Shown here: positions 13,283-40,603 of the stretch, piece by piece
Layout: every line of letters starts with the position of its first letter
Position numbering within the stretch: position 1 is the stretch's first letter
Source of the DNA: Ectobacillus panaciterrae DSM 19096
GTDB taxonomy: Bacteria; Bacillota; Bacilli; Bacillales; Bacillaceae_G
NCBI RefSeq assembly: GCF_000430785.1
Contig: NZ_KE387250.1
Span: 44,204 to 94,439, forward strand
DNA: 50,236 bases
Direction of reading: 5' to 3'
Notes under the pieces: generated by a model
Seen by the model: only the letters and a program-made list of their open reading frames with translations
Databases searched by the model: none
Told to the model about the DNA's origin: nothing
Program-made: the position numbers and the translations under genes

Positions 13283-14548
13283 TTGAGACCTGGTGAGAGA
13301 ATTAGACAGCTTAGAATACACAAAAATATGACACAAGGAGAGCTTGTAGAAGGAGTTTGTTCAATTACATATCTAAGTAGGATTGAAAATGGTCAGACTA
13401 GTCCTTCTAAATCTTTTTTAATAGCTGTGGCAAATAAGTTAGGAATTGATCCAGAAGATTTGACGGATGGTGATCGAAAGAGTCGCTTAAAACGGATTTC
13501 GCAAATTATTCAGCAGTATAGGAAGAATAGGGAAATTTGTGAAGAGGATGAATATTTTCTTAGAATTAGTTCGTTGGAAACTTACTCTCATGAAGTATAT
13601 CTTCAAATTTATGCTACATTAATAAGCCTTTATCTTGATAAAAATAAGATGAAAGAAGCAAATTCTATCTATGACTTATCTATTAAATTTATACCAGAAA
13701 CGACTTCTGACGAAGAGAGTATCGATTTCTACTATTATTACGTCAGCTGCGGGAATCTTTATTATTACAAACAAGATTATATCAAATCAAATGAGTTGTA
13801 TGAAAAAGCGGAAAATTTCGTAAAGGAAATAGAGGGCCTAGAGTTAGGTAAACTATATTATAATATTAGTTTGGTGAAACAAAAGCTGATTATAGATCAA
13901 AATATCAGCTTGTATTACTCTAAAAAAGCGTACGAGATTTTTAGTGAATGTGGCCAGGATATAGATATAACAAAAGTGTTGATCACACAAGCTGTTCAAT
14001 ACAATCTAGCAAAGAAGTATAGCAAATCAGTGGATTGTTTACAAATAGCAAACCAAAGGATTAAAGAAAATCCAAATGAGCATCTTCAAGCTATGGTTGA
14101 ATATAACTTTGGACGAGTATATCAAGAACAGGGAGAATATGATAAAGCGATTATCCACTATGAACGCTGTATTGAATTACGGGATAGTATGTCATTAGAG
14201 AGAGAGAAAATCCATTCCTACCAACGGCTGGTACAAATTTATCACAATCTAAAAGATTGGATTAAGGTAAATGAATTTCTTGAAGAAGCCATTCGAATCG
14301 CGAAAGAACATGAATTGACATATAGTTATATTCAATTCCATATGATGAAAGCCACTATCTATAAAGACCGCTTTGATGAGGCAAAATATGAGAAAGAAAC
14401 TCAAAGAATAATAGATCTGGCTATCGAGACTAATCAGATTAGATTGGCAAAAGAAATGGCTAGTAATTTAGGAGATCATTTTGTTGAAAAAAGAGCATAC
14501 AAGAAAGCTGCTGAATACTACAAATTATCTTTAGCTTATGAAGTATAG
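13283..14548 (+). CDS. RRNPP-family HTH-TPR transcriptional regulator (PlcR/NprR-like)
   Basis: The protein has 421 residues. An N-terminal XRE-type helix-turn-helix (residues 1-60: RPGERIRQLRIHKNMTQGEL, SITYLSRIENG) is followed by about 350 residues of tetratricopeptide-like repeats, for example GRVYQEQGEYDKAIIHYERC and AYKKAAEYYKLSLAYE. This is the architecture of the peptide-binding quorum-sensing regulators PlcR, NprR and PrgX. I chose TTG at 13283 because GGAGGTG lies 7 bases upstream; the longer frame from 13241 would run through a probable -10 box. A gene for a small secreted peptide follows 175 bases downstream, as is usual for receptor/pheromone pairs. It is probably the switch for the NRPS operon beginning at 15.1-16.1 kb. 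Confidence 0.88.
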   Translation: MRPGERIRQLRIHKNMTQGELVEGVCSITYLSRIENGQTSPSKSFLIAVANKLGIDPEDLTDGDRKSRLKRISQIIQQYRKNREICEEDEYFLRISSLETYSHEVYLQIYATLISLYLDKNKMKEANSIYDLSIKFIPETTSDEESIDFYYYYVSCGNLYYYKQDYIKSNELYEKAENFVKEIEGLELGKLYYNISLVKQKLIIDQNISLYYSKKAYEIFSECGQDIDITKVLITQAVQYNLAKKYSKSVDCLQIANQRIKENPNEHLQAMVEYNFGRVYQEQGEYDKAIIHYERCIELRDSMSLEREKIHSYQRLVQIYHNLKDWIKVNEFLEEAIRIAKEHELTYSYIQFHMMKATIYKDRFDEAKYEKETQRIIDLAIETNQIRLAKEMASNLGDHFVEKRAYKKAAEYYKLSLAYEV

Positions 14549-14723
14549 ATGAATTACACGTCATCTACAATAGATTTGGAGTAAACATATATATTAAGTT
14601 TGTTTAATGCAGACTGAAAAAATTGATTTAAATGAAGAAAAAAATCGATATATTTTACTTCTTATTTTTAACAGTCCACCTAATATAAATTATATTTAAC
14701 AGATTACGAAGGGATAGAGGAAT

Positions 14724-14849
14724 ATGAAAAAACTATTTTTAGTTCTTATGTTATTTAGTCTGTTAAGTGGAGCTGTTTTAGATTCGAGTGGAAATGAAAT
14801 GGTTAATGAGGTAGCTAGAACATTTGATGATCAACCTGGACCTTATTAA
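14724..14849 (+). CDS. 41-residue secreted pro-peptide, candidate quorum-sensing pheromone precursor
   Basis: This gene is too short for routine calling. The ATG at 14724 follows GATAGAGG. The product starts MKKLFLVLMLFSLLSGAV, a Lys-Lys plus hydrophobic signal peptide. A polar section (SSGNEMVNEVAR) follows, and the C-terminus is TFDDQPGPY. Size, layout and position just behind an RRNPP receptor are those of Phr/PapR/NprX precursors, whose mature 5-10 residue peptide comes from the C-terminal end. A good terminator follows. The mature peptide is inferred to lie within the last 8-10 residues. I know no family member with this exact end. Confidence 0.75.
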   Translation: MKKLFLVLMLFSLLSGAVLDSSGNEMVNEVARTFDDQPGPY

Positions 14850-14893
14850 CAGATTTAAAGGTTTTATAATTTACAATTAAATTTTAATGTATG

Positions 14894-14936
14894 AAAACCT
14901 TGGTGGATTGCGAAATCCGTTAAGGTTTTTTTATAT
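14894..14936 (+). terminator. Terminator after the pro-peptide gene
   Basis: AAAACCTTGGTGGATT pairs with AATCCGTTAAGGTTTT over a GCGA loop, followed by TTTTATATTTTT. It separates the regulator/peptide pair from the biosynthetic operon. Confidence 0.85.
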
Positions 14937-15070: not shown

Positions 15071-15112
15071 CTGTTAGATTAAAGAAAATAAATTGGTTTG
15101 AGGTGGTGGGTA

Positions 15113-15823: not shown

Positions 15824-16017
15824 AAAGACTATATGTGTTTGTTTTCCTTATTTCTTTACTTCGTTTAGATCTCATTTAAATTCATAGTTTTTCAATGAGA
15901 AAACTGTTATTTAGAAAGAGTGTTTCTCCACAGAAAATAGAACTTAAAAATGGCTCCACGAATCTAGAAAAAATACATGTAATTTTACTTCTTTAATTAA
16001 ACATTTACATGTATGTA
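15824..16017. promoter_or_regulatory. Second copy of the control region before the biosynthetic operon
   Basis: AAAGACTATAT recurs at 15824-15834. AAAATACATGTAA (15971-15983) and TTACATGTATGTATTTT (16005-16021) form a wide inverted pair around TTTAATTAAA. An activator or repressor of the operon could bind here. No gene is seen in 15803-16115. Confidence 0.4.
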
Positions 16018-16115
16018 TTTTATACTTAGCAGTTTTGATTATGCTTGAGTTTAACAAAATTTGGATTTTTTTCGCGCTTGTGAGCAAAAAATTAATTTTT
16101 CAGGAGGATATCCCA

Positions 16116-17369
16116 TTGATTGCTCTATTATTTCCTGGTCAAGGTTCTCAATACATAGGGATGGGCAAAAGTCTTGCCGACGAATTTCCTATTGCTAGAA
16201 GGACCTTTGAAGAAGCAGATGATGTATTGAAGATCAATCTATCTTCATTGTGTTTTGAGGGGGAGTTGTCCCAATTAACAAGAACAGAGTATACACAGCC
16301 AGCTTTATTGACAGCAAGTGTAGCTGCTTATCGTGTTTATATGGACGAGATTGGGCTTAAACCAAGCTTTGCTGTTGGGCATAGTTTAGGAGAATTTTCT
16401 GCATTAACCTGTAGTGGTGCGATTTCATTTGCCGATACTCTAAAAATCGTGTGTCAGCGCGGCATATTGATGCAAGAAGCTGTTACAAACGGTTTGGGTA
16501 TAATGACAGCGGTTGGTCAGGTAGATCGTAAACGGGTTGAGGAATTGTGTGTGCGAATCTCAACAAAGGAGAAGCCGGTCGTGATCGGATGTTACAATGC
16601 ACCGGAACAACTCGTACTTTCAGGCCATCAAGAGGCTGTTAGTAAGGTGGCTGAACTGTTAGAGATAGAGGGAGCAACGGTTACTCCTTTAAAAGTGAGT
16701 GCATCTTTCCATAGTCCAATGATGGAGCCAGCTGCCGACCAGTTTAAACATATGCTTTCTCAGTATAACTTTTGCTTAGGAGACTATCCTGTGATTTCCA
16801 ATGTGACTGCTCTTCCGCATGAATCGGATCATTTGAGGGATCTCTTGACTCGACAAATGACAGAACCGGTTAGATGGCAGGAATCAATGGAGTATTTACA
16901 GCTTCAAAATGTGAAGATAGCCATTGAACTCGGGCCTAAGCAAGTACTGCAAAATTTAATGAAAAAAAATGCACCTTCCATTCAAACAGTATCATTAGGA
17001 GAGACTGGAGATATTCCAAAGACAAAGGGAGTGTTCAATCGAGAGAATATCGAACCTTCTTTTATCGGAAAGTGCCTAGCGATCGCAGTAGCGACAAAAA
17101 ATCGCAATTGGGATAATGAGGCATATGTGAAAGGTGTAATTGAACCTTACCAAAAGGTGAAGCAAATATCTATGCTATTGGATCAAACCAAGCAAGAACC
17201 AACCAGAGAGCAGATGGTAGAAGCTCTATTGATGCTACGTTCTGTATTTGAAACAAAAAAGGTACCGCACAGCGAGCAGCAAAAACGGCTAAAACAATTA
17301 CTCCGTAAGCCGGCCGTACATGAGTTTGCACTGTCAGAACAGGGGGATTTCACATGGCCAAACTTCTGA
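16116..17369 (+). CDS. Free-standing malonyl-CoA:ACP transacylase (FenF/ItuD-like)
   Basis: The protein has 417 residues. Residues 1-290 form an acyltransferase: LLFPGQGSQYIGMG, the nucleophile GHSLGEFSAL, the acid-binding Arg in CQRGILMQEA, and the His of SASFHSPMM. A further approximately 125 residues have no motif I know, as in FenF/ItuD of the iturin loci. It loads malonyl onto carrier proteins in trans. TTG at 16116 follows AGGAGG by 8 bases and gives the standard IALLFPGQGSQ start; the frame upstream to 16035 is not needed. It overlaps the next gene by 16 bases, so the two are translationally coupled. That partner is a PKS module without its own AT, so this enzyme is its expected extender loader. 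Confidence 0.92.
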   Translation: MIALLFPGQGSQYIGMGKSLADEFPIARRTFEEADDVLKINLSSLCFEGELSQLTRTEYTQPALLTASVAAYRVYMDEIGLKPSFAVGHSLGEFSALTCSGAISFADTLKIVCQRGILMQEAVTNGLGIMTAVGQVDRKRVEELCVRISTKEKPVVIGCYNAPEQLVLSGHQEAVSKVAELLEIEGATVTPLKVSASFHSPMMEPAADQFKHMLSQYNFCLGDYPVISNVTALPHESDHLRDLLTRQMTEPVRWQESMEYLQLQNVKIAIELGPKQVLQNLMKKNAPSIQTVSLGETGDIPKTKGVFNRENIEPSFIGKCLAIAVATKNRNWDNEAYVKGVIEPYQKVKQISMLLDQTKQEPTREQMVEALLMLRSVFETKKVPHSEQQKRLKQLLRKPAVHEFALSEQGDFTWPNF

Positions 17370-20300
17370 ATTTTGATAAAAAAAGCAATACAAGCAAAAT
17401 AGAATCATCCACAACAGCCATTAATGAAGTATCGACGAAAGAAATTGCGATCATTGGTATGGCAATGCATTATCCTAAAGCGGCAAATCAAAATGAGTTT
17501 TGGAGCAATTTGATTCATGAAATGGACTGTTCAGGTGATTTTCCAAAAGGGCGTAGAGGAGACATCGAAGCCTACTTACGCTTTAAAAACTCTTTGAATG
17601 ATACTATCAAGTATTTTCGAGGATCTTATTTAGAGAAAATTGACGAATTTGATTATTCTTTTTTTGGGATAACACCGAAAGAAGCCGAACTGATGGATCC
17701 AAACCAACGGTTGTTTTTGCAAACTGTTTGGAAAGCGATAGAAGACGCTGGTTATGGTGGCAAAAAATTGGTCGGATCAAAAACAGGTGTGATTGTGAGC
17801 AGTGAAGGTGCCAAACCTTTAAGCTACCAAACGATAGTCCAGGATGTAGAACCAGAATCGACTTATCTAGCCTATCCAGGGAATTCGGGACCGATGACAG
17901 CAAGCCGCATTTCTTATTTACTAGATCTGCATGGGCCTACGATGTTGATTGATACGTCTTGTTCTTCTTCACTTAGTGCGGTTAATGTGGCGGTTCAAAT
18001 GTTGCGTAATGGTCAGATGGATCAGGCGATTGTGGGGGCAATTAAGATTAATTTGCTTCCAATCGACATTGGATCTCGCGTGGGCATGGAATCATCCGAT
18101 GGCCGGACGCGAACCTTTGCGGATAACTCAGACGGAACCACAATGGGTGAAGGTTCTGCAGCCTTAATCCTTAAACCGTTAAGTAAGGCGATTCGAGACC
18201 ATGATCATATTTATGCGGTGATTAAAGGAAGTGCATCCAATAATGATGGGCGTGCAATCAGCGTAACGGCTCCTAATCCAATCGCACAGGAAGCCGTTAT
18301 TGTAGAAGCATGGAAGGATGCAGGTATCAATCCAGAGCACATCTCTTATATTGAGACGCATGGGACAGCAACTCAATTGGGTGATCCAATTGAGATTTCG
18401 GGAATTACTAATGCATTTCAGCGTTACACAGATAAGAAACAATTTTGTGCAATTGGCTCAGTAAAATCTAACTATGCCCATACTTATTGTTTGGCTGGTA
18501 TTACAGGGGTGATTAAAGCAGCGTTAAGCTTACGGTATAAGCAAATTCCTGCTAGCTTACATTTTCATAAACCGAATCAAAATATTTCCTTTGAAGAATC
18601 ACCTCTTTATATCAATGATCAATTGGCAGATTGGGAAACGGATGAAAAGCCTCGTCTTTGTGGAGTAAGTTCTTTTGGGATGAGTGGGACCAACTGTCAC
18701 ATTGTGTTGGAAGAGGCTCCACAAAAGAAAGAGGACCAGGCAGTACAAAAAGGGCCTCATTTATTTATGCTCTCTGCCAAAACAGAAACAGCCTTACGCC
18801 AGTTGTTGATTGACTATCTGCGTGATCTTGCCCAGAAACAGAACGAACAGGTAAGTCTTGAGGATATTTGTTATACAGCTAGTACAGGAAGAGGGCATTA
18901 TCCATATCGTATTGCTATGGTTGTAAATGATTTACGGGACCTTCAATGTAAACTATTGAAATTAGCTCAGGATGGTTGTGAAGAAACGGAACAAAATGTG
19001 TATTACCAACATACAACTCAGTCATTTGAGAGTGAAGAAGCGAATCAGCATGTCGAACAAGTTCTTGGAACCGGCAGTGGAAATGTGAGCTTGCTTATAA
19101 TGATTGCAGACCTATATGTAAAAGGAGCTGATATTGATTGGGGCAAGCTATATAGTAAGAGGTCCCCACGCAAAGTATCACTTCCAGCTTATCCATTTGA
19201 TCGTGTTCAATGCTGGATTGATATTCCTGAAACACCTGCAATCAATATGGCAAATCCGGAGCTGCTACAAACCTATCAAGAGGTAGCAGGCTACTTAGAA
19301 GAACAAGTAAGCCTTGATTCAACAACGAAGATGAAGGTGGAGAAGTGGTTAGATACATTTAAGAAGTTTCTGCCAAATGAGTGTGAATCGCCTTCACAAA
19401 TCATTGAAATGACTGGTAGAGAAGATAACAACTATAGTAAAAAGGAGCAGGAGATCGCAGTTGTTTGGCAAAAGGTTTTGGGTCTAAAAGTTGTGAATAT
19501 CCATGAAGATTTCTTTGATCTAGGTGGAGACTCATTTATTGCAATTCAATTTGTTTCGAAACTCCATAAAAAATATCAAGTGGCTCTAAACGATATATTC
19601 ACCCATCGAACGATCTGCCAGCTTGCTAAAAACATCAAAGAACAATCAGATAGTCCTGAAGTAAAGTTAGAGAAATTAAAGAAGAGTTCACAGTCACGAC
19701 CTGCGATTTTTACAGAAATGCAACGGTTTATTCAAGAAGCAACTCATAAATATGAGGCGCGATATAAGGAATTAGAACGTTTAGAGCTTACAAAGGTGAA
19801 AAATTATTCCAATATTTTCTTGACAGGTGTAACTGGTTACTTAGGTATTCATTTGTTACACGATTTACTAAAGGAAACAAGCAGCCATTTTTACGTCCTT
19901 GTTAGAGGAAAGACACAAGCAGAGGCTGAAGCGCGGTTGGCAGAAAAATGGGAGTATTATTTTGGATTCAACTCATTTGATCGAACTCGAGTCACCATTG
20001 TAAATGGAGATCTAGTACATGACAAGTTTGATTTGGCAGATGGAGTATATAATTCTCTCGCTCGGATTGTAGATTGTATCGTCCACTCTGCGGCGACAGT
20101 GAAACATTTTGGTGATTACTCAGAATTTGAAGAGTTAAATGTAAATGGTACGAAGCGAATCATCCGATTTGCCCATGAACAAAAACCAAAAGATATCAAC
20201 TTCATTTCGACTACAGCTGTTTCCAAAGGAAAAGTACAAGATCGCAAATGTGTTGTGTTTACTGAATACGATCATGACATTGGCCAAGAAGTGGGTCATC

Positions 20301-20917
20301 CGTATGGTGAGAGTAAATTAGAAGCAGAAAAACTAATTGTGGAAGCAAGAAAACAAGGATTAAACTGCAATATTTACCGGGTTGGAAATATTATGTGTCA
20401 CTCCGAAACGGGTAAATTCCAAGAAAACATAGAAGAAAACGGGTTGTATACCATTATCCGATCTATGATCAAAATGAATATGTTCCCTGATAGCAGCCAT
20501 GGTGAGATTGATTTTACCTACATTGACTATGTCAGCCGCAGTATATGTCTACTATTTAATAGGGCACATTTAAGCAATGAAACGTATCATCTGATGAACT
20601 TAGATAAAACCAGCTTCTATGAACTGGGGGAAGCGGCAAAATCATCTGGTTTATCCGTGAAAGTGGCTCCTTACGGTGAATTTATTGACTTTATGAGCGA
20701 TAACTATACAGATGAGTATTTTGGTCCTTATATTCATAATCTATTACTTCATTTCGGTTTCTTTGAGGAACTAGAAGAGGAAGAGCGTGCACACTTTGTT
20801 ATGCTCTCAGATAAAACAGAATGGTTATTGAAGCAATTTGGGCTGGTTTGGAGAAGGCCAAATCAAGAACAATTGAAAAAAATGCTAGATCATTGTATAG
20901 AGGTTCAATTCATCTGA
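17354..20917 (+). CDS. AT-less polyketide synthase module with reductive release: KS - ACP - thioester reductase
   Basis: The protein has 1187 residues. KS at about 30-455 contains the nucleophile DTSCSSSLSAV (Cys about 203), ETHGTATQLGDP and KSNYAHTYCLAG. Residues 470-640 are the flanks of an AT (LFMLSAKTETALR ... SLPAYPFDRVQCW) with the AT itself missing. ACP is at 695-765 (DFFDLGGDSFIAIQF, Ser about 727). A C-terminal NAD(P)H-dependent thioester reductase is at 820-1187 (FLTGVTGYLGIHLL; YGESK active-site Tyr/Lys). With the trans malonyltransferase upstream it should add one C2 unit, and the reductase then frees an aldehyde or alcohol. There are no KR, DH or methyltransferase domains. It should act last although its gene comes first, because the NRPS proteins lack any release domain. 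CAGGGGGA lies before the ATG. Confidence 0.93.
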   Translation: MAKLLNFDKKSNTSKIESSTTAINEVSTKEIAIIGMAMHYPKAANQNEFWSNLIHEMDCSGDFPKGRRGDIEAYLRFKNSLNDTIKYFRGSYLEKIDEFDYSFFGITPKEAELMDPNQRLFLQTVWKAIEDAGYGGKKLVGSKTGVIVSSEGAKPLSYQTIVQDVEPESTYLAYPGNSGPMTASRISYLLDLHGPTMLIDTSCSSSLSAVNVAVQMLRNGQMDQAIVGAIKINLLPIDIGSRVGMESSDGRTRTFADNSDGTTMGEGSAALILKPLSKAIRDHDHIYAVIKGSASNNDGRAISVTAPNPIAQEAVIVEAWKDAGINPEHISYIETHGTATQLGDPIEISGITNAFQRYTDKKQFCAIGSVKSNYAHTYCLAGITGVIKAALSLRYKQIPASLHFHKPNQNISFEESPLYINDQLADWETDEKPRLCGVSSFGMSGTNCHIVLEEAPQKKEDQAVQKGPHLFMLSAKTETALRQLLIDYLRDLAQKQNEQVSLEDICYTASTGRGHYPYRIAMVVNDLRDLQCKLLKLAQDGCEETEQNVYYQHTTQSFESEEANQHVEQVLGTGSGNVSLLIMIADLYVKGADIDWGKLYSKRSPRKVSLPAYPFDRVQCWIDIPETPAINMANPELLQTYQEVAGYLEEQVSLDSTTKMKVEKWLDTFKKFLPNECESPSQIIEMTGREDNNYSKKEQEIAVVWQKVLGLKVVNIHEDFFDLGGDSFIAIQFVSKLHKKYQVALNDIFTHRTICQLAKNIKEQSDSPEVKLEKLKKSSQSRPAIFTEMQRFIQEATHKYEARYKELERLELTKVKNYSNIFLTGVTGYLGIHLLHDLLKETSSHFYVLVRGKTQAEAEARLAEKWEYYFGFNSFDRTRVTIVNGDLVHDKFDLADGVYNSLARIVDCIVHSAATVKHFGDYSEFEELNVNGTKRIIRFAHEQKPKDINFISTTAVSKGKVQDRKCVVFTEYDHDIGQEVGHPYGESKLEAEKLIVEARKQGLNCNIYRVGNIMCHSETGKFQENIEENGLYTIIRSMIKMNMFPDSSHGEIDFTYIDYVSRSICLLFNRAHLSNETYHLMNLDKTSFYELGEAAKSSGLSVKVAPYGEFIDFMSDNYTDEYFGPYIHNLLLHFGFFEELEEEERAHFVMLSDKTEWLLKQFGLVWRRPNQEQLKKMLDHCIEVQFI

Positions 20918-25427: not shown

Positions 25428-25594
25428 CAGTCTGTATGAATCATTAGCTTTGAGGTTGGGAGATTACCTGCCGTACCGAAACAGTAGCAATTTACTACAG
25501 GTAATTCTCTCAGCTTCCCTGCTTATTTTCATCGTGGCTGGCAATGTCATGATTATAAAAATTCTATACGAAACCCGATCGGAGGAGAGAGATT
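25428..25594 (+). other. Structured gap between thioesterase and NRPS genes
   Basis: GAGATTACCTG (25461-25471) can pair with CAGGTAATTCTC (25498-25509) with one bulge, enclosing a smaller GTAG/CTAC hairpin. There is no T-run. A 62-codon frame (25450-25638) with a membrane-like segment overlaps the NRPS start and lacks a ribosome binding site; I do not call it. The structure may adjust expression between the supply genes and the NRPS genes. Confidence 0.35.
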
Positions 25595-31000: not shown

Positions 31001-34000
31001 CCATAATGGAAAAGTGGATTATCCTGCTTTACCAGCACCTAATTTTACGAATGCTTCAAGAATCCACGTTGCTCCTCGCACTGATATAGAAGAGAAATTA
31101 GTTTTGATCTGGGAGCATGTGCTACAGGTTCAAACGGTTGGAGTAGATGATAATTTCTTTGAAGTAGGTGGAGACTCAATTTTAAGCATTCGAATTTTGG
31201 GTGAAGTACGTAAACTGGGTTATCCATTGACGGTGCAAGATCTATTCCGTTTCCAGACAATTAGAGAATTGGCTCAGATGATTGAAGATTCCAAAGTTAC
31301 TGAAGATCATCTACCTGTAACTGCGCCATTCCAGCTGATTACGGATGAGGATCGCACCAGTTTGCCTTCGGGGGTTGTTGATGCATATCCGCTGACCAAA
31401 CTCCAAGAGGGGATGCTATTTCACAGTAATTATCATCAAGATTCCATGACTTATCTCAATGTTTCTTCGTACCATCTAAAGGCTCTATTCCATCCACAAG
31501 CATGGGAGCAAGCAGTTGCTAGTTTAATGAACGATCATCCAGTATTACGGACATCGTTTGATTTAACCAGCTATAGCCAGCCTTTACAGTTGGTACATGA
31601 AAATGTGGCCATTCCTTTTGAAGTGATTGATCTACGTCATTTGTCTTCATCGCAACAAGAAAAATGGTTGGCCGACTGGAAGGAAAAGAAAGAAATTGCT
31701 TATTTTGATTGGACAAATGCTCCGTTGTTTAAAATCGTTATTCATCTTCGTACTAAGGATACATTTCAGTTCACCTGTATTGAACACCATGCGATTTTAG
31801 ATGGATGGAGTGTGGCATCCTTATTTGCTGAGGTATTCCGCCTTTATGTTACTTTCATGAATCACGAGGAGAAAAATTGGCAGGCACCACAAGCCGAATT
31901 CCGTGATTATGTTGCTATGGAAGGAGAGGCATTGCAGTCTGAGGAACACCAACGATTTTGGAAAGAACAATTATCATCATACTCATTCCATGAGATTCCT
32001 CGTTGGCATAATTCTAAAACGGAGCAGCAACACCAAGTACGTGAAAAGAGAGTTGAGATTCCGGTAGCTGTATCTGACTCGTTAAAACAGCTTGCTAGTC
32101 AGATGAAAGTACCATTGAAAAGCATTTTGCTTGCTGCTCATTTCCGTGTGCTACAGATGGTGAACGGACAGTCGGAGGTCATTACGGGTGTGCCGTTCAA
32201 TGGACGAACGGAAGGTCATGATGGCGAAAGAACGCTGGGGCTTTTTCTCAATGCGTTGCCGTTTGGGGTTAAATTGTCCGGTGAAACTTGGACTGATTTC
32301 ATCTATCAAATTTTTAAACAAGAACAATCCTATTTACAATATCGCCGTTATCCTTTGGCACAAATTCAGCAAGACTTGGGTGGGAAACCATTATATGAAG
32401 TAATTTTTAACTTTACCCATTTCCATGTGCTTGATTCATTACAGGAATTGGATGATTTCCAAGTACTGGAGTTCACAGAGAGAACCTATAACAACTTTGC
32501 GTTGTCAACTGAGTTTATGTTAGATCAGTTAGATCATCTGCAATTTTTAATTCAATGGGATCAGACACAGTTCTGTGAAGAACAAATTGCTTTGATGTCC
32601 AGCTATTATCAGAAGGCATTGGAGTCTATCATCCAAAATTCTATGGCACGTTATGAAGAACAGGACTTATTGACGGAGGTGGAAAGAAATCAGATTGTAA
32701 CTATATTTAACCAACCAGAGTCAGAGAATGAGTTGGCTGTATTACGATCCAAAACCATCCATCAATGGTTTGAGGAACAAGCAGCAAAAACTCCTGATCA
32801 AATCGCAGTTGTTTACGAAGGAAAACAACTGACTTACCAAGAGTTAAATGAAGAAGCAAATCGAATTGCCCATATGTTACGTGCAAAAGGGGTTGTACGA
32901 GAATCCATTGTAGGGATTATGGTGGAACGCTCAATTGAGATGGCTGTTGGGACGCTAGCCATTTTAAAAGCAGGGGGGACTTACCTGCCAATCGATCCAG
33001 AGTACCCGGCAGAGAGGATTGAATATTTACTTGAGGATAGTAAAGCATCCTTGCTATTAACAAAGCAAGAATGGATCGAGAGCTTCCAAGTCTTCCATTA
33101 TACAGGTGAAGTCATTGATTTGTGTCATATATCAGGAGAGAATGGGAATCCGCATAATTTGGCAGATGTGAATGATCCATCAGATTTGGCGTATATCATT
33201 TATACATCGGGTTCGACAGGAAAGCCAAAAGGTGTGATGGTTGAGCATAGCAACGTGGTTCGACTCGTCATCAATCAAGACTTTATTGACTTTTTGCCAG
33301 GTTATCGTTTGCTGATGACAGGAAACTTTGCCTTTGATATCTCTACATTAGAAATTTGGGGATCACTATTAAATGGGTTAACTCTACATTTGCTAGATAA
33401 AGAGAAACTGCTTGATCCCAAAAAGCTCGAGCGTGAGTTAGTGGACAATCAAATTGACATCGTTCATCTAGTATCTCCTTTGTTTAGTCAATTGTCACAA
33501 GAGAATCCAGAGATGTTCTCCGCTGTACAGACGTTATTGGTAGGTGGAGATGTTGTATCCACAAGTCATGTGAATTTAGTAAGAAAACATTGTCCACAAC
33601 TTAAGGTGATCCATTCTTATGGACCAACCGAAAATACGACGTTTTCTACAACATATCATGTGAATCGCGATTTTGATTCATCCCTTCCAATTGGTAAGCC
33701 ACTGCGCCACTCGACGGCTTATGTCGTTGATCCAAAGACAGAATTACTGCGTCCGGTTGGAGTACCTGGTGAACTATGGGTTGGAGGAGAAGGTGTTGCG
33801 AGAGGATATTTCAATCAACCTGAAATGACGAAAGAGAAGTTTATTGAGAGCCCGTTCCAAACAGGCGAAAAAATATATAAAACAGGTGATCTAGTTCGAT
33901 GGCTCCCTGATGGTACTCTGGAGTTTCTTGGACGAATCGATCAGCAGGTAAAAATCCGCGGTTATCGAGTAGAGGTTAGCGAGATCGAGTACAAATTATT

Positions 34001-37000
34001 ACAACTAGAGAAAGTAAAAGAAGCCGTAGTCATCGCGAGAGAAGATCAACATGAGAAATACCTGTGTGCCTATGTGATTGGATCGGAACCATTATCTGTG
34101 TCTGAGCTGCGTGAGTATGTAGCTGAATCATTACCTGATTTTATGATTCCAAGCTATTTCATACAACTTGAACAAATCCCGCTGACAGCGCATGGCAAAG
34201 TGGATCGAAAACAATTACCAGCACCGCAAGATGGGGATTATCTTGAAGAGGAGTTTATCGCACCACGTAATGAGTGGGAAACCAAAATAGCTAAGGTATG
34301 GCAAAAAGTATTGGGCCTGGAACATGTTAGTATTCGAGAATCGTTCTTTTCATTGGGTGGCCATTCATTGAAAGCAACCATTCTTGTCAGTAAGTTGCGC
34401 CAAGAATTACAAGTGGAAATCGAGATTAAAGATATCTTTACGTATCAAACAGTGGAGAGATTAGCCCAGTTTGTGATGCAAGCGGAAAAACTGCAGCACC
34501 AGTCAATTCCAGTAGTCGAGCAACAGGAGTACTACATAGCATCTTCTGCACAGAGACGAATGTTTACTTTGGATAAGATTGTAGATAACAAACTGCTGTA
34601 TAACATTCCTATTGCCATTCGGATCATGGGGAATTTAGATCAGAAGCGATTCCAAGAAAGTTGGAACATGTTGATAGAACGACATGAATCCTTACGCACC
34701 AGCTTCGAGCTAGTCAAGGGGGAAGTTGTGCAGAAGGTCCATCCGCCTGTTCCACGCACAGTCGATTTCATTCCAGTTTCATCTGAAGCTGAAGTGGGTT
34801 GGTTACAACAGCTGGTAAGCAAATCGTTTGACTTGAAACATGCTCCGCTCTTTCAAGCAACAGTTTTGGAACGTACGAAAAAGGATTTCATCCTGGTAAT
34901 GAATATGCATCATATTATTTCGGATGAAGCCTCGATTGGAGTAATCCTTCGTGAGCTTATGGATTTATATGAAGGACGAGAGTTAAAGGAGCAAAGAATA
35001 CAATATAAAGATTATGCATCCTGGCATAATCAGTTATTGCAATCAGAAACGATGAAGCAGCAAGAAAACTATTGGGTGAACCAATTTGCAGGAGAGATTC
35101 CAATTCTCCAATTGCCAACAGATTTCCAGCGTCCTACAGTAAAAAAATACGATGGGGATTCAGTATCGTTTGTTGTAGATTCTTCTGTGATTGCTGGTTT
35201 AAGGAAACTAACCGAATATACTGGTACGACGAACTATATGGTACTATTGGCAGCTTTTAAAGTGCTACTGGCAAAATATAGCCGCCAAGACGATGTGGTC
35301 ATTGGCACGCCAATCGCTGGCCGAACACACGCAGATGTAGAGAATGTGGTTGGAATGCTTATTAATACCTTGGCTATTCGTACGAATCCTCGCAGTGATA
35401 AGACCTTTTTACAGTATGTAGAAGAGGTGAAATCGAAAGCATTAGAGGCGTATAGCCATCAGGATTACCCATTCGAGTATTTGGTTGATCAATTAAAAGT
35501 AAAAAGGGATCTCAGTAGAAATCCGTTATTTGATGTAATGTTTTCGATGGAGTACCCTGATATTCCACAAAGCAGCACATGTGAAATCAGTTTTATGCCT
35601 TATGAGACACCTTATCCGTTAGCTAAGTTCGATCTTAGTTTATATGCACAAGAAATCGATGAACAGCTCCAGTTTACTTTCCAATATTCAACTGGGTTGT
35701 TTACAAAAGAAACTATGGAACAGATGGCTTCGCACTACCAGCGAATTCTTCAATCCATCATAGCCCAGCCGGAGAAGAGCTTGGCGGGTATCGAAATGTT
35801 AACGGAAATAGAGAGACAACAGATTCTCTTCGACTTCAATAAAACTGAGGCAGTGGCGCCGACTGATCGGACCATTCATCAGTTATTCGAAGAACAGGTG
35901 CGTAAAACACCAAATAAGATCGCTGTTGTTCATCGTGAAGTTAGCTTAACATACCTTCAAGTAAATGAACGAGCTAATCAGTTGGCTTGGCAACTTCGTC
36001 ACCAGGGTGTAACTGCCAATACAATCGTGGGACTGATGGTAGAGAGATCTGTTGAAGTGATTGTCGGAATTCTAGGAATCTTAAAAGCGGGCGGGGCTTA
36101 TGTCCCAGTGGACCCGGAGCTCCCATCGGAACGAGTCAGCTATTTATTAGACAATAGCGGTGCACATGTGTTGATTACACAAACCGGGTTGCTAGATCAA
36201 GTCGATTACAAAGGTAAGGTTGTAGATATCCATGATCATTCGCTAACGAAACAGCCAAAAACGAATCCGGAGAGTGTGAATCAGCCAGATGATTTGATGT
36301 ATGTAATTTATACATCCGGTAGCACGGGTAACCCAAAAGGCGTGATGCTTGAGCATCGGAGTATGGTCAATTACGTTACTTGGTTTACTGGGATGGCAAA
36401 GTTAACTGCTAATGATCGTACAATTCTACTTTCCTCATATGCATTTGACCTTGGCTATACTAGTTTGTATTCATCTATATTAAATAGATGTGAGCTTCAT
36501 ATTGCTGATAAAGATTTGGTACGAATTCCAGAAGCGTTATTAGCATACTTGAGTGATCATCAAATTAGTTTTATCAAAGGGACACCATCACTATTCCGCA
36601 TGATGTTACATGCATCTTCCGGTCATTGGCGTAAAACATGTGAAACCTTGCGATTAGTGGTACTAGGTGGTGAACCGATGCATGCAGAGGAAATGAGAGG
36701 CTTCCTTCAAACGTATCCGTATGTTCAGGTAATTAATCATTATGGACCGACAGAAACCTGCGTTGGTGCAATTGCAGGATTTGTAGATCCAGAACAATTA
36801 GTAGATCGAAGCAATATACCTGTTGGAAAGCCGATTAACAATAATAAAGTATACGTTTTAGATTCAGAGCTTCAGGCTGTACCTGTAGGTGTACCTGGTG
36901 AATTGTTTATCTCAGGAGCAGGATTGGCGAGAGGCTACCTCCATCGGCCAGATCTGACTGAAGAGAGATTTATAACCAATCCTTTTGTGGATGGAGAGCG

Positions 37001-38222
37001 AATCTATCGTACCGGGGATATTGTACGGTTACTGCCAGATCGAAGAGTAGAATTCCTTGGTCGTGCTGATCATCAGGTGAAAATTCGAGGGTATCGGGTA
37101 GAACTTGAGGAAATCGAAAGCCATTTACTTCTTCACCCGTCGATTCATCAAGCGGCGGTCATCTGTAAGGATAGTCAATCGCTTATTGCCTATATCGTCA
37201 CAGAGGAAGAACTTACACTTACCGCGCTACGAGATTATTTGGCAAAGAAAGTACCTGACTATATGATTCCAGCACAATTTGCGGTATTGGATCAGATCCC
37301 ACTTACACAAAACGGGAAAGTTGACCGGCGCGCCTTACCTGAAGTCGAAGGAATAACAAGTTTGGAAGTGGAGCATACAACCCCATTGGATCAAGTAGAA
37401 CAAGATTTAGTTCAGATCTGGGAGCAGGTGTTGGGGATTAAGGGTGTGGGAACGCATTATAACTTCTTTGATATTGGCGGAAACTCGATGTCATTGATCC
37501 AGATGCATAGTCTCATTGAACCAATGTATATAAATGTGACCGTGACGGATTTGTTTGCTTACCCATCGATTTCAAAATTAGCAGAGTATATTCGTCAAAC
37601 TACATTTCAAGATCAAAAACCTAGCGTAGAAGCAATTCCATATCCTGAAGAATACTTTGCTATGGACAAAGGATTATCTGATGGTACATTGGATTTCACC
37701 ATTGGGGGTGAAATGTTTGCATCCATACAAGGGATTGCCGAAAATATGCAGCTTCATCAATCTGAGTTAATGCTTGCTTTATTCCTCTATCTGCAAGCGG
37801 AGCTAACTGAGCAAGATCAAATAACGGTTCCAACGATTATGGATTGGAGCGATAAGGTCAATTTAGTAACCATCGATCTAAGTAAGATTGAACAGATTTC
37901 AGACCTGTTCAAAATCGTACAAACACAGTTAAAAGCAGCGGTCTCCCTGAACTATCCATTAATTGATCTAGGGTATATGAAAATAGTGAAGGATGAAAAT
38001 GCTTTGCTCCCTGGATTTATGCGCAGAAGTGCTTCTGCTTTAGAAATGCGATTCGCAGAGAAGTGTGACTTGCTTCTTGTGCTCCATGAGCACCCGACGC
38101 ATCTGTATGTGGAGTGTATGTACAATACTCGTTTAAACAAAGTGAAAATACTAGAAATGATGCAACAATATGTGCAAGTCGTCCAATCTTTGGTGGAGCA
38201 GCTTGCACCGAGTAACACGTAA
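28095..38222 (+). CDS. Three-module NRPS: C-A(Thr)-PCP-C-A(Hpg-like)-PCP-C-A(Asp)-PCP-orphan C-lobe
   Basis: The protein has 3375 residues. C1 about 15-450 (HHSITDG, 154); A about 470-960, code D-F-W-N-I-G-M-V-H-K, canonical Thr; PCP Ser about 1027 (VGGDSIL). C2 about 1090-1510 (HHAILDG, 1232); A about 1540-2010, code D-I-L-H-L-G-S-T-F-K, whose first six positions resemble Hpg codes (DIFHLG); PCP Ser about 2088 (LGGHSLK). C3 about 2130-2560 with HHIISDE (2273), Gly replaced by Glu; A about 2580-3060, code D-L-T-K-V-G-H-V-G-K, Asp; PCP Ser about 3130 (IGGNSMS). Residues 3170-3375 resemble a lone C-terminal lobe of a condensation domain. There are no epimerase, methyltransferase or thioesterase domains. 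Codes were read by eye against GrsA positions. The chain should pass to the KS-ACP-TR protein. Confidence 0.95.
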   Translation: MSEQNQQMKQQDVTDPEQYYVFPASYAQQSQWFFYEMAPDSPLYNLPYLIHMQGTLDRNALEKSLQVIVNRHESLRTSFRMEQNQLVQVIAPERTISLPVALIDPSSGIDQESWIQEWARAESSRLFDLQNDSLLRGYLLQVSEDEHFLVITMHHSITDGWSMAIFIKEWLELYRDFVENQPMSISEPSIQYADFAEWQRDRFESGEMADQIAYWKQQLQGSPAILQLPTDRPRPAVQSYRGASYFFSICQELTETVSSFSKDEGVTLFMTLFAAYQTLLYRYSGQDDLVVGTPIANRNQAGMEDLIGFVANTLALRSQIGEGWSFRQLVNHIRHVTLDAYDHQDVPLDKVVDELQVERSVAHPPLFQVMFVLQNTPVTAWEFPGVTCTPVPLHNHTAKFDLTLTIVEEANGLACSFEYNTDLYHKETIQRMARHFEQLLQHGTETPDQLLTCLQMVTAEEKAQDIAQMKQNTRCFDTEHAIHQLFEQQVASTPHAVAVVCEEKQYTYQELNERANQLAHELVQRGINADSLVGICVERSLDMIVAIIGTLKAGGAYVPLDPKIPSDRLQFILEDSQVKVLLTQSEVSQSFPSLAVTQVHLDTDWEKISQQSKCNLELPVSARQLAYVIYTSGTTGKPKGVLVDHGNVTRLFTATGDWYDFTEHDVWTLYHSYAFDFSVWEIWGALLYGGKLVVVPFWISRSPEDFYQLLQREQVTILNQTPSAFRQLIEMAKTDPSGRKLALRYVIFGGEALELQCLRPWFELYGDQTPQLVNMYGITETTVHVTYRPITSADLEAGKGSVIGIPIPDLQVYVLDKHLQSVPTGVVGEMYVSGAGVTRGYLLRPELTAERFITNEAGDRLYKTGDLARYLPGGELEYHGRIDHQVKIRGFRIELGEIESTLVQHPSIRETVATVKEDKQAGKRIVAYVVLEKDESSDLTDSLRSYLHERLPDYMIPAAFVEVSIIPLNHNGKVDYPALPAPNFTNASRIHVAPRTDIEEKLVLIWEHVLQVQTVGVDDNFFEVGGDSILSIRILGEVRKLGYPLTVQDLFRFQTIRELAQMIEDSKVTEDHLPVTAPFQLITDEDRTSLPSGVVDAYPLTKLQEGMLFHSNYHQDSMTYLNVSSYHLKALFHPQAWEQAVASLMNDHPVLRTSFDLTSYSQPLQLVHENVAIPFEVIDLRHLSSSQQEKWLADWKEKKEIAYFDWTNAPLFKIVIHLRTKDTFQFTCIEHHAILDGWSVASLFAEVFRLYVTFMNHEEKNWQAPQAEFRDYVAMEGEALQSEEHQRFWKEQLSSYSFHEIPRWHNSKTEQQHQVREKRVEIPVAVSDSLKQLASQMKVPLKSILLAAHFRVLQMVNGQSEVITGVPFNGRTEGHDGERTLGLFLNALPFGVKLSGETWTDFIYQIFKQEQSYLQYRRYPLAQIQQDLGGKPLYEVIFNFTHFHVLDSLQELDDFQVLEFTERTYNNFALSTEFMLDQLDHLQFLIQWDQTQFCEEQIALMSSYYQKALESIIQNSMARYEEQDLLTEVERNQIVTIFNQPESENELAVLRSKTIHQWFEEQAAKTPDQIAVVYEGKQLTYQELNEEANRIAHMLRAKGVVRESIVGIMVERSIEMAVGTLAILKAGGTYLPIDPEYPAERIEYLLEDSKASLLLTKQEWIESFQVFHYTGEVIDLCHISGENGNPHNLADVNDPSDLAYIIYTSGSTGKPKGVMVEHSNVVRLVINQDFIDFLPGYRLLMTGNFAFDISTLEIWGSLLNGLTLHLLDKEKLLDPKKLERELVDNQIDIVHLVSPLFSQLSQENPEMFSAVQTLLVGGDVVSTSHVNLVRKHCPQLKVIHSYGPTENTTFSTTYHVNRDFDSSLPIGKPLRHSTAYVVDPKTELLRPVGVPGELWVGGEGVARGYFNQPEMTKEKFIESPFQTGEKIYKTGDLVRWLPDGTLEFLGRIDQQVKIRGYRVEVSEIEYKLLQLEKVKEAVVIAREDQHEKYLCAYVIGSEPLSVSELREYVAESLPDFMIPSYFIQLEQIPLTAHGKVDRKQLPAPQDGDYLEEEFIAPRNEWETKIAKVWQKVLGLEHVSIRESFFSLGGHSLKATILVSKLRQELQVEIEIKDIFTYQTVERLAQFVMQAEKLQHQSIPVVEQQEYYIASSAQRRMFTLDKIVDNKLLYNIPIAIRIMGNLDQKRFQESWNMLIERHESLRTSFELVKGEVVQKVHPPVPRTVDFIPVSSEAEVGWLQQLVSKSFDLKHAPLFQATVLERTKKDFILVMNMHHIISDEASIGVILRELMDLYEGRELKEQRIQYKDYASWHNQLLQSETMKQQENYWVNQFAGEIPILQLPTDFQRPTVKKYDGDSVSFVVDSSVIAGLRKLTEYTGTTNYMVLLAAFKVLLAKYSRQDDVVIGTPIAGRTHADVENVVGMLINTLAIRTNPRSDKTFLQYVEEVKSKALEAYSHQDYPFEYLVDQLKVKRDLSRNPLFDVMFSMEYPDIPQSSTCEISFMPYETPYPLAKFDLSLYAQEIDEQLQFTFQYSTGLFTKETMEQMASHYQRILQSIIAQPEKSLAGIEMLTEIERQQILFDFNKTEAVAPTDRTIHQLFEEQVRKTPNKIAVVHREVSLTYLQVNERANQLAWQLRHQGVTANTIVGLMVERSVEVIVGILGILKAGGAYVPVDPELPSERVSYLLDNSGAHVLITQTGLLDQVDYKGKVVDIHDHSLTKQPKTNPESVNQPDDLMYVIYTSGSTGNPKGVMLEHRSMVNYVTWFTGMAKLTANDRTILLSSYAFDLGYTSLYSSILNRCELHIADKDLVRIPEALLAYLSDHQISFIKGTPSLFRMMLHASSGHWRKTCETLRLVVLGGEPMHAEEMRGFLQTYPYVQVINHYGPTETCVGAIAGFVDPEQLVDRSNIPVGKPINNNKVYVLDSELQAVPVGVPGELFISGAGLARGYLHRPDLTEERFITNPFVDGERIYRTGDIVRLLPDRRVEFLGRADHQVKIRGYRVELEEIESHLLLHPSIHQAAVICKDSQSLIAYIVTEEELTLTALRDYLAKKVPDYMIPAQFAVLDQIPLTQNGKVDRRALPEVEGITSLEVEHTTPLDQVEQDLVQIWEQVLGIKGVGTHYNFFDIGGNSMSLIQMHSLIEPMYINVTVTDLFAYPSISKLAEYIRQTTFQDQKPSVEAIPYPEEYFAMDKGLSDGTLDFTIGGEMFASIQGIAENMQLHQSELMLALFLYLQAELTEQDQITVPTIMDWSDKVNLVTIDLSKIEQISDLFKIVQTQLKAAVSLNYPLIDLGYMKIVKDENALLPGFMRRSASALEMRFAEKCDLLLVLHEHPTHLYVECMYNTRLNKVKILEMMQQYVQVVQSLVEQLAPSNT

Positions 38223-38367: not shown

Positions 38368-39645
38368 ATGGAAAAAATGAATTTCTCATTATTTAAACAA
38401 CGTAATTTTGCGTTATTAATTATTTCGGAAGCAACATCTTTATTTGGCACCTTCTTTTTGAATGCAGCACTCGCACTATATGTTTTGAAACTAACTGGAT
38501 CAGCGGAGAAATTTGCATCTGTCTTAACACTAGGGATGGTTCCGTATCTCATCGTAGGTCCAATTGCTGGAGCGTTGGCGGATCGATTTAACAAAAAAAA
38601 ATGGATGATTATACTAGATGTATTACGGGGTCTGCTTTGTATTAGTTTATTTGTCTTTAGTTTAACTGAGACGATCACCATGCCTCTTATCTATTTCACT
38701 GTATTATTTATATCAACTTGTGAAATCTGTTATGGACCTGTATTTATATCTTTGCTACCTAGTGTAGTAAAAGAAAAAGAGCTAATTGATGCCAATTCAT
38801 TTGAAAAAACGATTAACGAAACAATGAAAATCCTTGCTCCTTTCCTTGGAACCCTAGTATACAGCTTGGTAGGAATAGGACCGGCCTTATTGTTTAACGG
38901 ATTTACTTTTTTAATCTCCGCTCTAGCAATCTTCTTTATGGTAATCCCCAAGGCGGAGAATGCGATAGTTAGACGGATGAGTTTGTTTAAAGATGTGTGG
39001 GATGGATTTAAAGTGTTTTTTATAGATAAACGATTAACTTCAATTGTTTGCAATGCATTTTTAACTCACTTTTTTATGTATCCGTTTATCTTACTTGGCT
39101 TTCCTTATATCATTGTAACGGTACTCGGCGGTAAGGGAACAGACTATGGTATCGTAGAAAGCATTTCCACAATTGGGTCGATCCTTGCAATCTTGATTGT
39201 GCCCCCTATGAAGAAATTTGGAGTAGCCAACAATATTGGAATTGGTATCCTAGGCATGTGCATACCTGTTATTCCGTTATTACTTTTAGGTAATCCGAAT
39301 TTTATACAGATATTAAAAGAAAATGTACATTATCCTGTGTTATTTTTTGGCCTGATTAGTTTCCTGCTTTTCCTGGCATTTAGTTTTTATCTGGTCTTTT
39401 TTGCTTCATTTTATCAAACGGTGGTTCCGAAAGAACTATTTGGCCGATATGGAGCGGGAATGATGGTATTAAACGGATTAGGAAGATTGTTTGGATTTCA
39501 GATTTTTGGTTATTTATTTAGCTTAGATTCATTATTATATGCTGTTATTTTCTTTGGGATTGGTATGCTACTGAAAATTGTAGTACATATCCCGTTTATG
39601 AGCATTACAAAAAAGTTAGAACAACAACAAAGTCAAGTGGTATAA
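38368..39645 (+). CDS. MFS exporter (MefA/EntS-like MFS_3 group)
   Basis: This membrane protein has 425 residues and about 12 hydrophobic segments. The N-terminus LFKQRNFALLIISEATSLFG and motif A GPIAGALADRFNKKKWM are typical of the macrolide/siderophore exporter branch of MFS. AAGGAGGACG precedes the ATG at 38368. It lies 145 bases behind the NRPS gene in the same direction. It is the probable exporter, and perhaps self-protection, for the cluster product. Confidence 0.9.
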   Translation: MEKMNFSLFKQRNFALLIISEATSLFGTFFLNAALALYVLKLTGSAEKFASVLTLGMVPYLIVGPIAGALADRFNKKKWMIILDVLRGLLCISLFVFSLTETITMPLIYFTVLFISTCEICYGPVFISLLPSVVKEKELIDANSFEKTINETMKILAPFLGTLVYSLVGIGPALLFNGFTFLISALAIFFMVIPKAENAIVRRMSLFKDVWDGFKVFFIDKRLTSIVCNAFLTHFFMYPFILLGFPYIIVTVLGGKGTDYGIVESISTIGSILAILIVPPMKKFGVANNIGIGILGMCIPVIPLLLLGNPNFIQILKENVHYPVLFFGLISFLLFLAFSFYLVFFASFYQTVVPKELFGRYGAGMMVLNGLGRLFGFQIFGYLFSLDSLLYAVIFFGIGMLLKIVVHIPFMSITKKLEQQQSQVV

Positions 39646-39737
39646 GGGAAAGAGATGGGTGTTAAGATCGCTCAGTCCAGTTAATTGGATTGTGTATTAC
39701 ACCATATTCGTGAGAAATCCAGTGTTTCTGCAATACT

Positions 39738-39790
39738 CTCCCCATCCCTGGAAGGACAAAGGCCCAACAGAGAATATGGATGGGGGGATC
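39738..39790. other. Long imperfect hairpin before the PPTase gene
   Basis: CTCCCCATCC (about 39737-39746) pairs with GGATGGGGGGA (39778-39788). No T-run follows. It may attenuate read-through from the exporter gene or stabilise the message. Confidence 0.35.
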
Positions 39791-39817
39791 AAGTTGTATT
39801 ATCAATGGGAGGAATAA

Positions 39818-40603
39818 GTGATTGGTACTCAATTAGGGGTGGATGTGAATGAAATGAAGGTAGAGTCAACACTAAACGTATACTGGGTACAAATCCCTGA
39901 GGAGATAAACTTATCAGAATGGATATTGGATTTAGATATATTAGATAAAGAAGAAAGAATCACTTATGAACGGTATCTAGTAGATCAAAAGAAAATTGAA
40001 TTTTACTCTGGAAGATTGCTGTTAAAAAAAATACTTGGGCAGATGTTGGAGATCCAACCAAAGAGGGTTGTTTTTGAGAAGAATCAATTTGGAAAATTAT
40101 ATTTACATCCAAAGTACGTCAATGAAATGAAAAAGGGTCCAATATTTTTTAACTTGTCACATTCGAAAAGAATTGTTACCTGCGTGATTTCTTCTTTTGA
40201 CGAGGCAGGTATTGATGTCGAGAGTATCACCAAAAATCCTCTAGATGTAATGCCAGTAGTCTTTGTGCCTCAGGAGCAAATGCTTGTTGAAGCAGAGGAA
40301 TCCTTTGTAAAGAAAGTGGAGGCGTTTTACAGAGTTTGGACACGTAAAGAAGCTGTAATGAAAGCGATTGGAAAAGGATTTTCACTTCCGCCGTTGTCAT
40401 TTGCGGTGCCTGTTCACGGAGAAAGAATAATGGATGAAAATTATCTGTACTATACTTTTCATCCGATGGATGGTGAAATGATTTCAATTGCTGTACGTAG
40501 GACAGATAAGATAGAAATAAATTTTAAATGCAAGGAAATTACATTTTCTCACCTATTTTCAGATGATACTCAATTTAAGGATGTAAAGTACCCGCTGTAT
40601 TGA
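39818..40603 (+). CDS. Sfp-type 4'-phosphopantetheinyl transferase
   Basis: The protein has 261 residues and shows the Sfp motifs: KNQFGKLYL, FFNLSHSKRIVTCVIS, AGIDVESI with the Mg-binding Asp/Glu, and FYRVWTRKEAVMKAIGKGF. It attaches phosphopantetheine from CoA to the four PCPs and the ACP encoded upstream. GTG at 39818 is chosen because GGGAGG lies 5 bases upstream; the next in-frame starts (GTG 39839, ATG 39857) would remove N-terminal residues that the family does not strictly need. Its presence at the end of the operon makes the locus self-sufficient for carrier activation. Confidence 0.92.
   Translation: MIGTQLGVDVNEMKVESTLNVYWVQIPEEINLSEWILDLDILDKEERITYERYLVDQKKIEFYSGRLLLKKILGQMLEIQPKRVVFEKNQFGKLYLHPKYVNEMKKGPIFFNLSHSKRIVTCVISSFDEAGIDVESITKNPLDVMPVVFVPQEQMLVEAEESFVKKVEAFYRVWTRKEAVMKAIGKGFSLPPLSFAVPVHGERIMDENYLYYTFHPMDGEMISIAVRRTDKIEINFKCKEITFSHLFSDDTQFKDVKYPLY

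Follow-up and report, generated by a model that had tools for sequence, protein, structure and literature searches.

In glycopeptide-type gene clusters, hydroxyphenylglycine (Hpg) is supplied by the hydroxymandelate synthase HmaS, the FMN-dependent oxidase Hmo and the aminotransferase HpgT, and no Hpg-containing peptide from Bacilli is known to us. As to how one megasynthase docks onto the next, the excerpted text of a 2021 review (PMC9113145) names four-helix bundles, DHD, COM and SLiM/beta-hairpin classes, with no half-condensation type among them. Here, we analysed a 50,236-nt stretch of Ectobacillus panaciterrae DSM 19096 (contig NZ_KE387250.1, positions 44,204 to 94,439; hereafter the window, in whose coordinates all positions are given). 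Open reading frame (ORF) calling and Pfam searches located, as long ORFs with strong matches, ten + strand genes at 16117-40603 that hold nonribosomal peptide synthetase (NRPS) modules, a ketosynthase (KS) module without acyltransferase (AT) and a separate AT, as in NRPS/trans-AT hybrids. We consider it probable that they form a self-contained, horizontally moving NRPS/trans-AT polyketide synthase (PKS) cassette that makes its own Hpg, assembles Ala-Thr-Hpg-Asp plus a C2 unit and frees the chain through a thioester reductase (TR) domain. More tentatively, and with slightly less than even confidence, we propose that the half-condensation tail closing its large NRPS (about 200 residues, C-terminal lobe only) belongs to an undescribed handover or docking class, from a peptidyl carrier protein (PCP) to a KS, in NRPS/trans-AT hybrids of Firmicutes, one that would let gene order be ignored when the order of an assembly line is predicted.

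The genes run in the order malonyl-type trans-AT, KS-acyl carrier protein (ACP)-TR protein, FAD oxidase, HmaS-like dioxygenase (4-hydroxyphenylpyruvate dioxygenase, HPPD, superfamily), aminotransferase, type II thioesterase (TEII), loading protein with half a condensation (C) domain, an adenylation (A) domain and a PCP, NRPS with three C-A-PCP modules and the tail, major facilitator superfamily (MFS) exporter, and Sfp:

15897..16116 (+): putative 5′ leader/promoter region, 79% alike in Bacillus pakistanensis
16117..17369 (+): trans-acting malonyl-type AT (FabD/FenF-like), 417 aa; PF00698 E 1.3e-39, above the TIGR00128 fabD cut-off
17354..20917 (+): KS-linker-ACP-TR protein without AT (Pfam)
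within it (+): KS ~17438-18673, linker ~18761-19213, ACP ~19445-19639, TR ~19808-20914
20947..22308 (+): GlcD/LDHD-type FAD 2-hydroxyacid oxidase; PF01565 and PF02913
22322..23464 (+): HPPD-superfamily enzyme with hydroxymandelate-synthase-type residues (HmaS-like); TIGR01263, PF00903
23483..24664 (+): class I/II aminotransferase, proposed HpgT role; PF00155 E 1.9e-41
24708..25427 (+): TEII (editing); PF00975 E 7.3e-45
25595..28081 (+): loading protein with half C (residues 1-215), A (Ala code DLFNNCLTYK) and PCP; Pfam
28095..38222 (+): NRPS with C-A(Thr)-PCP, C-A(Hpg)-PCP, C-A(Asp)-PCP and half-C tail; Pfam, A codes, motifs
37605..38219 (+): C-terminal half-condensation tail, proposed NRPS-to-KS handover element
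38368..39645 (+): MFS exporter; PF07690, in all five cassette copies
39818..40603 (+): Sfp-type phosphopantetheinyl transferase; PF01648, PF22624

A first-pass annotation, made from the letters of the window, had listed four A domains, four PCPs, an AT-less KS-ACP-TR protein and a separate AT, with supply genes, TEII, exporter and Sfp all in one direction and synthases devoid of a thioesterase (TE) domain; ORF calls and Pfam bear out each of these points, and neither an epimerization (E) nor a TE domain was found by Pfam in the large NRPS. That the unit is complete, as it had also claimed, is supported by the cassette order and borders in relatives. Its starting point for the locus (13283), by contrast, lies outside the conserved cassette; homology with the best relative begins at 15897. 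For the AT, TTG 16117 is the probable start, because AGGAGG lies just upstream (16103-16108) and the resulting 417 aa compare with 417-418 in relatives; the alternative start called at 16035 would add 27 residues. Across the whole host genome (5.41 Mb), PF00668 gave four C-domain matches, every one inside this locus. A search of Rfam at gathering thresholds gave no match.

Relatives were sought by a pattern-based scan with the KS-ACP-TR protein over one genome per species (84,980 species), of which the best 80 matches, at 77 loci, were kept. Among them, full-length relatives occur in Bacillus pakistanensis DSM 24834 (89%), Paenibacillus vietnamensis (80%), P. arenilitoris (78%) and P. caseinilyticus (76%), and a distant one in Clostridium zeae (41%). 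When 56-58 kb around the four close relatives and 40 kb around the C. zeae protein were compared, cassette genes and order proved identical in three of the four, the P. caseinilyticus copy being without TEII and an adjoining Sfp; a DNA search of the host, B. pakistanensis and P. caseinilyticus genomes found no counterpart of the leader in the last. The match to B. pakistanensis DNA is a single piece of 24,763 columns (15897-40601) at 88.2%, compared with 77.4% for rpoB stretches, and the three Paenibacillus cassettes reach 73.2-81.5% versus 71.5-71.9% for rpoB, with a narrow margin in P. caseinilyticus (73.2 versus 71.9%). At the protein level, cassette identities are 82-91% in B. pakistanensis (RpoB, 89.9%) and 71-90% in Paenibacillus (RpoB, 79-80%). 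Because peptide-pathway genes are thus as conserved as RpoB, and their DNA is more alike than rpoB, the comparison suggests horizontal transfer of the cassette, clearly for three relatives and weakly for P. caseinilyticus. In three genomes of the host's own genus, the best KS-ACP-TR matches had E 3.5e-45 or weaker, with partial cover at most; the plasmid collection held no near match and the viral contigs no relatives.

The A codes, read by hand from aligned A4-A5 stretches of the window and four relatives, are DLFNN(C/A)L(T/V)YK, DFWNIGMVHK, DILHLGSTFK and DLTKVGHVGK, the last three identical in all five copies and the loading code differing only at C/A and T/V. We take DLFNN.LTYK to specify Ala and DFWNIGMVHK to specify Thr. 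A 2025 code survey (PMC12283262) states, in the excerpted text, that pockets with DILHLGCTFK or DAMHLGCTFK can take Hpg, and it gives DLTKVGHVGK under Asp, the commoner type, as well as under Asn. The five-copy codes, read with that excerpt, support the previously predicted substrates Ala, Thr, Hpg and Asp. A motif check found the PCP serines, the ACP serine and the A10 lysines in place. The loading protein starts with the C-terminal half of a C domain only, so that the locus has three full C domains, and in all five copies HHxxxD[GE] occurs three times per NRPS, once per full C domain. The start of the second of these domains, YPLT..QEGMLFHS, is one known from D-accepting types, yet no E domain precedes it.

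After its last PCP, the large NRPS carries 205 further residues that had been overlooked in the first-pass annotation. They have the C-terminal-lobe fold of a condensation domain, with neither N-terminal lobe nor HHxxxDG found, and are 62-76% identical to those of the four relatives, as against 72-93% for the other domains of the same NRPS. What follows such tails was determined in two samples, the first being the 77 loci above, which are biased toward KS by their selection. Ends with identical last 150 residues were counted once, ends with longer known domains were classed apart, and the C. zeae row had also been used in building the tail model. Here, the tail is present on 39 NRPS-type ends, of which 36 (34 groups at 70% identity) lead to a KS, none leads to an NRPS gene, and three have no synthase gene in reach. 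Tail-less NRPS-type ends lead to KS (four), C (four, three of them this cassette's loading protein), A (one) or nothing (one). No PKS-type end has a tail, and 39 such ends stand before a KS without any extension. Eight NRPS-type ends have an extension of 168-272 residues under the model threshold (five lead to KS, one to C, two to none), and two PKS-type ends have 156-160 residues ahead of a KS. Fisher p values of 1e-4 (36/0 versus 4/5) and 2.5e-18 (36/40 versus 0/39) are descriptive, given shared ancestry and the KS-based choice of loci.

The second sample was chosen by the tail alone, searched against 398 genomes of the class (146 genera), and yielded 40 places in 26 genomes and eight genera: the window itself, 29 inspected loci, and 10 places outside inspection. 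In all 29, the tail stands at the protein end, after a thiolation (T) domain; 15 of them continue with a KS as the next synthase gene, and the other 14 with a stand-alone AT. A KS follows in each of the 12 AT-first loci that were extended with more DNA, and a thirteenth (L180) shows a KS start at the locus edge, so 28 of the 29 tails lead to a KS. In the remaining one, L183, the match stops 86 residues short of the C terminus, and the DNA covered runs out in an AT gene. These 29 tails fall into 16 sequence groups, one of nine members, and are not 29 independent events. Since tails lead to KS genes and the cassette holds a single KS, the pattern supports the prediction that the NRPS passes its chain to the KS protein, even though the latter is encoded first, which also favours the earlier view of a non-collinear order with the last-acting protein encoded first. 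A 133-residue terminal piece in palmerolide is read as a release domain in the excerpted account, and no published match to half-C docking was found in open-licence literature, a thin basis for calling the tail unpublished. If the proposal is true, the tail offers a simple sequence rule for NRPS-to-KS junctions and an interface for engineering hybrids.

The KS retains its Cys-His-His set (nearest PDB chain, 7zma), which argues for elongation, and the TR shows TGxTGxxG, FIST (the S/T position) and YGESK (YxxxK) in all five copies. An NADP motif together with a Ser/Thr-Tyr-Lys set tells an active TR from the redox-dead Dieckmann type; because both are present, this TR does not look like the latter. 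The AT belongs to the malonyl-type family; trans-AT loading, as suggested earlier, and a TR with its catalytic residues are both supported. No ketoreductase (KR) domain was found by Pfam in the KS-ACP-TR protein. In ten other NRPS/PKS hybrid proteins (L025, L033, L041, L043, L053, L066, L076, L078, L079 and L190), a BtrH_N/C39-like domain stands at the TR position, the matches of L043 and L078 being under the Pfam cut-off, which suggests that TR and BtrH_N-like domains may occupy an interchangeable release slot.

The dioxygenase passes the HPPD model TIGR01263 and is HPPD-like overall. At positions 189, 230, 245 and 364 (S. avermitilis numbering), however, the five cassette copies have A, T, V and I, whereas all nine HPPD rows (the two paralogues of the host genome and seven further HPPDs) have V or T, then S, N and F. 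Three actinobacterial rows (two Streptomyces copies annotated beside NRPS genes and one Nonomuraea copy beside an NRPS-like ORF) show A, T or I, I and I, so that A189 and I364 are common to the cassette and all three, and T230 to two of them. The branch that would bear on common descent with actinobacterial HmaS, which sets off the 13 HMS-type rows in the best tree, has support of 60/46. An independent origin of the Bacilli HmaS from a Bacilli HPPD looked attractive from the identities (54% to the host paralogues versus ~33% to the streptomycete copy) and was dropped, as this tree lends it no support. Residues N282, Q307 and Q293 of AtHPPD, which we take to be positions 245, 269 and 255, correspond to V, G and a conserved Q in the cassette copies. 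In the excerpted AtHPPD study (PMC6750108), N282A and Q307A carry ~160-fold and ~99-fold costs, and Q293 is the most sensitive residue of the set. The S. coelicolor Hms pocket, as given in an excerpt of PMC3720870, comprises Phe350, Gly351, Ser352 and Ile355, with which I364 of the cassette copies appears to be in line.

As for the next steps of Hpg supply, the best PDB match of the FAD oxidase is a probable D-lactate dehydrogenase (E 1e-119). No full-length PF01070 protein, the FMN hydroxymandelate oxidase family, was found in the host genome or the three Paenibacillus genomes, where matches were partial only, and B. pakistanensis has one full-length match, on a different contig from the cassette. 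A D-lactate-dehydrogenase-like flavoprotein may replace the FMN hydroxymandelate oxidase, and if the Hpg assignment is true, these genes point to a second way of oxidising hydroxymandelate. The aminotransferase is assigned at the class I/II level only. Among the 398 genomes of the class, the HmaS-like gene recurs at E < 1e-145 in three others, all of a single genus, where a relative of the FAD oxidase (56%) adjoins it and NRPS genes flank the pair in all three; an aminotransferase relative (51%) was recognised in one. These neighbourhoods amount to guilt by association for Hpg, short of proof. That genus has a higher GC content, and two of its genomes hold a second HmaS-like gene (N245, I364) near another NRPS. 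Confirmation of Hpg through a shared A code there was sought and dropped, the codes read being DVFWLGGTFK, DAFWLGCSFK, DVTKVGHIGK and DVYYLGGVCK, with no DILHLG.

Enzyme activities, order of action and product can be predicted from these sequences as follows. The HmaS-like dioxygenase would convert 4-hydroxyphenylpyruvate to 4-hydroxymandelate, the FAD oxidase would turn this into the 2-oxo acid, and the aminotransferase would yield Hpg. The loading protein would activate Ala, and the NRPS would then add Thr, Hpg and Asp, with the half-C tail after the last PCP marking the point where the tetrapeptidyl chain would pass to the KS of the first-encoded protein. With the trans-AT supplying malonate, this KS would add a single C2 unit, which would stay beta-keto because no KR was found, and the TR would free the beta-keto product by NADPH reduction. 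The simplest product would be Ala-Thr-Hpg-Asp plus C2, freed as an aldehyde (linear beta-keto form, C21H28N4O9, calculated ~480.19 Da), from which water loss could give a 14-membered enaminone or an N-acyl pyrrol-3-one; ring closure and the electron count of release are guesses. If this is true, the cassette is a compact, mobile and apparently complete pathway to a peptide whose C terminus is reactive. Many peptide aldehydes inhibit proteases, and the product would be worth isolating should the aldehyde assignment hold.

Several observations weigh against parts of this scheme. The HmaS-like protein scores 346 bits to HPPD and 209 bits to 2r5v, which we take to be A. orientalis HmaS, and the oxidase-HmaS association in the other genus does not confirm Hpg, because the neighbouring NRPSs lack a DILHLG code. 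The best-known members of the FAD oxidase family are D-specific. The characterised Hms gives the S product, as far as the excerpt of PMC3720870 goes. In the code survey excerpt (PMC12283262), Hpg is hard to separate from its analogues by code, and by its listing of DLTKVGHVGK, Asn may stand in place of Asp at the fourth residue. The Hpg code of the cassette is one residue off the published ones. The third C domain (Hpg to Asp, 34521-35849) has HHIISDE where HHxxxDG is expected, Gly being Glu in all five copies. A tail is not needed at every NRPS-KS junction, as four tail-less NRPS ends precede a KS. On part of this evidence, one could argue that the supply genes do not serve Hpg at all, the dioxygenase being an HPPD variant and the second A domain of the NRPS loading, for example, a Val or Phe-like residue: besides the better HPPD score, the code ends in TFK as in Val-type codes (excerpt of PMC12283262), and the related oxidase-HmaS pair lies beside NRPSs with DVFWLGGTFK or DAFWLGCSFK. 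We regard this as improbable, given the HMS-type residues at all four positions in five copies, the presence of two further HPPD-type genes in the host, and H278-L299-G301, which match the Hpg codes of the same survey excerpt.

The remaining alternatives concern release and handover. The same assembly line could end in a primary alcohol if the TR reduced twice; its nearest solved relative, MxaA, has an alcohol-forming domain and the catalytic S/T-Tyr-Lys set is in place, but AusA, whose R domain forms aldehydes, and other R domains match too, and the sequence fits two electrons as well as four, so we hold the alcohol to be unlikely, though far from negligible. That the KS-ACP-TR protein is encoded first and that a free-standing thioesterase is present might mean that this protein opens the assembly line or works on a different substrate and that the peptide is freed by TEII or otherwise, not via the KS. 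We give this very little credence, since the tail leads to a KS in nearly all inspected loci, the cassette has no second KS, one copy of it is devoid of TEII, and in C. zeae the tail-bearing NRPS directly precedes the AT and KS-ACP-TR genes. Finally, the tail might be a functionless evolutionary scar of a C-A module swapped for a PKS module, as its missing catalytic N-terminal half and its lower identity than that of the neighbouring domains would allow; this seems rather unlikely, because some 200 residues are kept at the same place in eight of 146 sampled genera and in the named Bacilli and Clostridia of the KS-chosen loci, invariably C-terminal in the inspected loci and on no PKS-type end. 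We retain the transfer of a tetrapeptide to the KS, followed by reductive release, as the preferred interpretation.

Outside the cassette, none of the window's flanking genes was found beside the four other copies (56-58 kb each), and the regulator at 13241-14548, the ORF at 15098, and the DUF7003, P450 and MarR genes were accordingly rejected as cluster members. The first of these, an HTH-TPR and presumably RNPP-like regulator, finds no match above 28% in the rest of those four genomes. Next comes a 41-aa ORF (14724-14849) whose N terminus looks like a signal sequence (MKKLFLVLMLFSLLSG...ARTFDDQPGPY), in the manner of a pheromone precursor; behind it lies a terminator-like hairpin (14893-14930; one found, 0.6 expected). 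In this strain, regulator and ORF may place the adjacent cassette under quorum regulation. For the 234-aa ORF at 15098-15802, Pfam and NCBIfam gave no match, and 39 related genomes yielded no homologue. Immediately to the right of the cassette are DUF7003 (40755-41186) and the P450 gene (41697-42920, − strand). Inside the cassette, the gap between the TEII and loading genes could fold into a hairpin (25440-25540; minimum free energy -29.5 kcal/mol, z -2.87, with 3 of 200 shuffles as good, for a stretch chosen by eye), and in two Paenibacillus copies the TEII and loading ORFs overlap in place of this gap.

Neither a described product of this plan nor Hpg in Firmicutes was recognised in open-licence literature, and the nearest systems each share part of the design. 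The C. zeae NRPS locus resembles the cassette in its AT, its KS-ACP-TR protein (41% over residues 17-1187), its adjoining MFS gene and the half-C tail on its last NRPS, but has larger NRPSs with the codes DAWFLGNVVK, DAFWLGG.. and DLTKVGHIGK, and no relatives of the Hpg supply genes were found in its 40 kb. The glycopeptide-type supply route shares A189 and I364 of the dioxygenase, as seen in the three actinobacterial copies, and T230 in two of them, yet relies on an FMN Hmo where the cassette has a GlcD/LDHD-type FAD oxidase. A Streptomyces finlayi plasmid locus also unites HmaS-like, FAD-linked oxidase, aminotransferase, MbtH and NRPS genes (code DVYHLGLVFK); its layout differs, identities are 27-33%, and no KS-ACP-TR gene occurs in the annotated stretch examined. 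NRPS/trans-AT hybrids with BtrH_N-like release (L190, downstream of L164) have the A-T-half-C tail, followed by an AT and next a KS-ACP-release protein, whose release domain is, however, BtrH_N/C39-like and not a TR. The thermoactinoamide synthetase, in the excerpted description (PMC7253712), has a similarly truncated N-terminal C domain (C*) on its loading module, but consists of two NRPSs, with no C-terminal half-C described there. Set against these systems, the cassette is a new combination of known parts.

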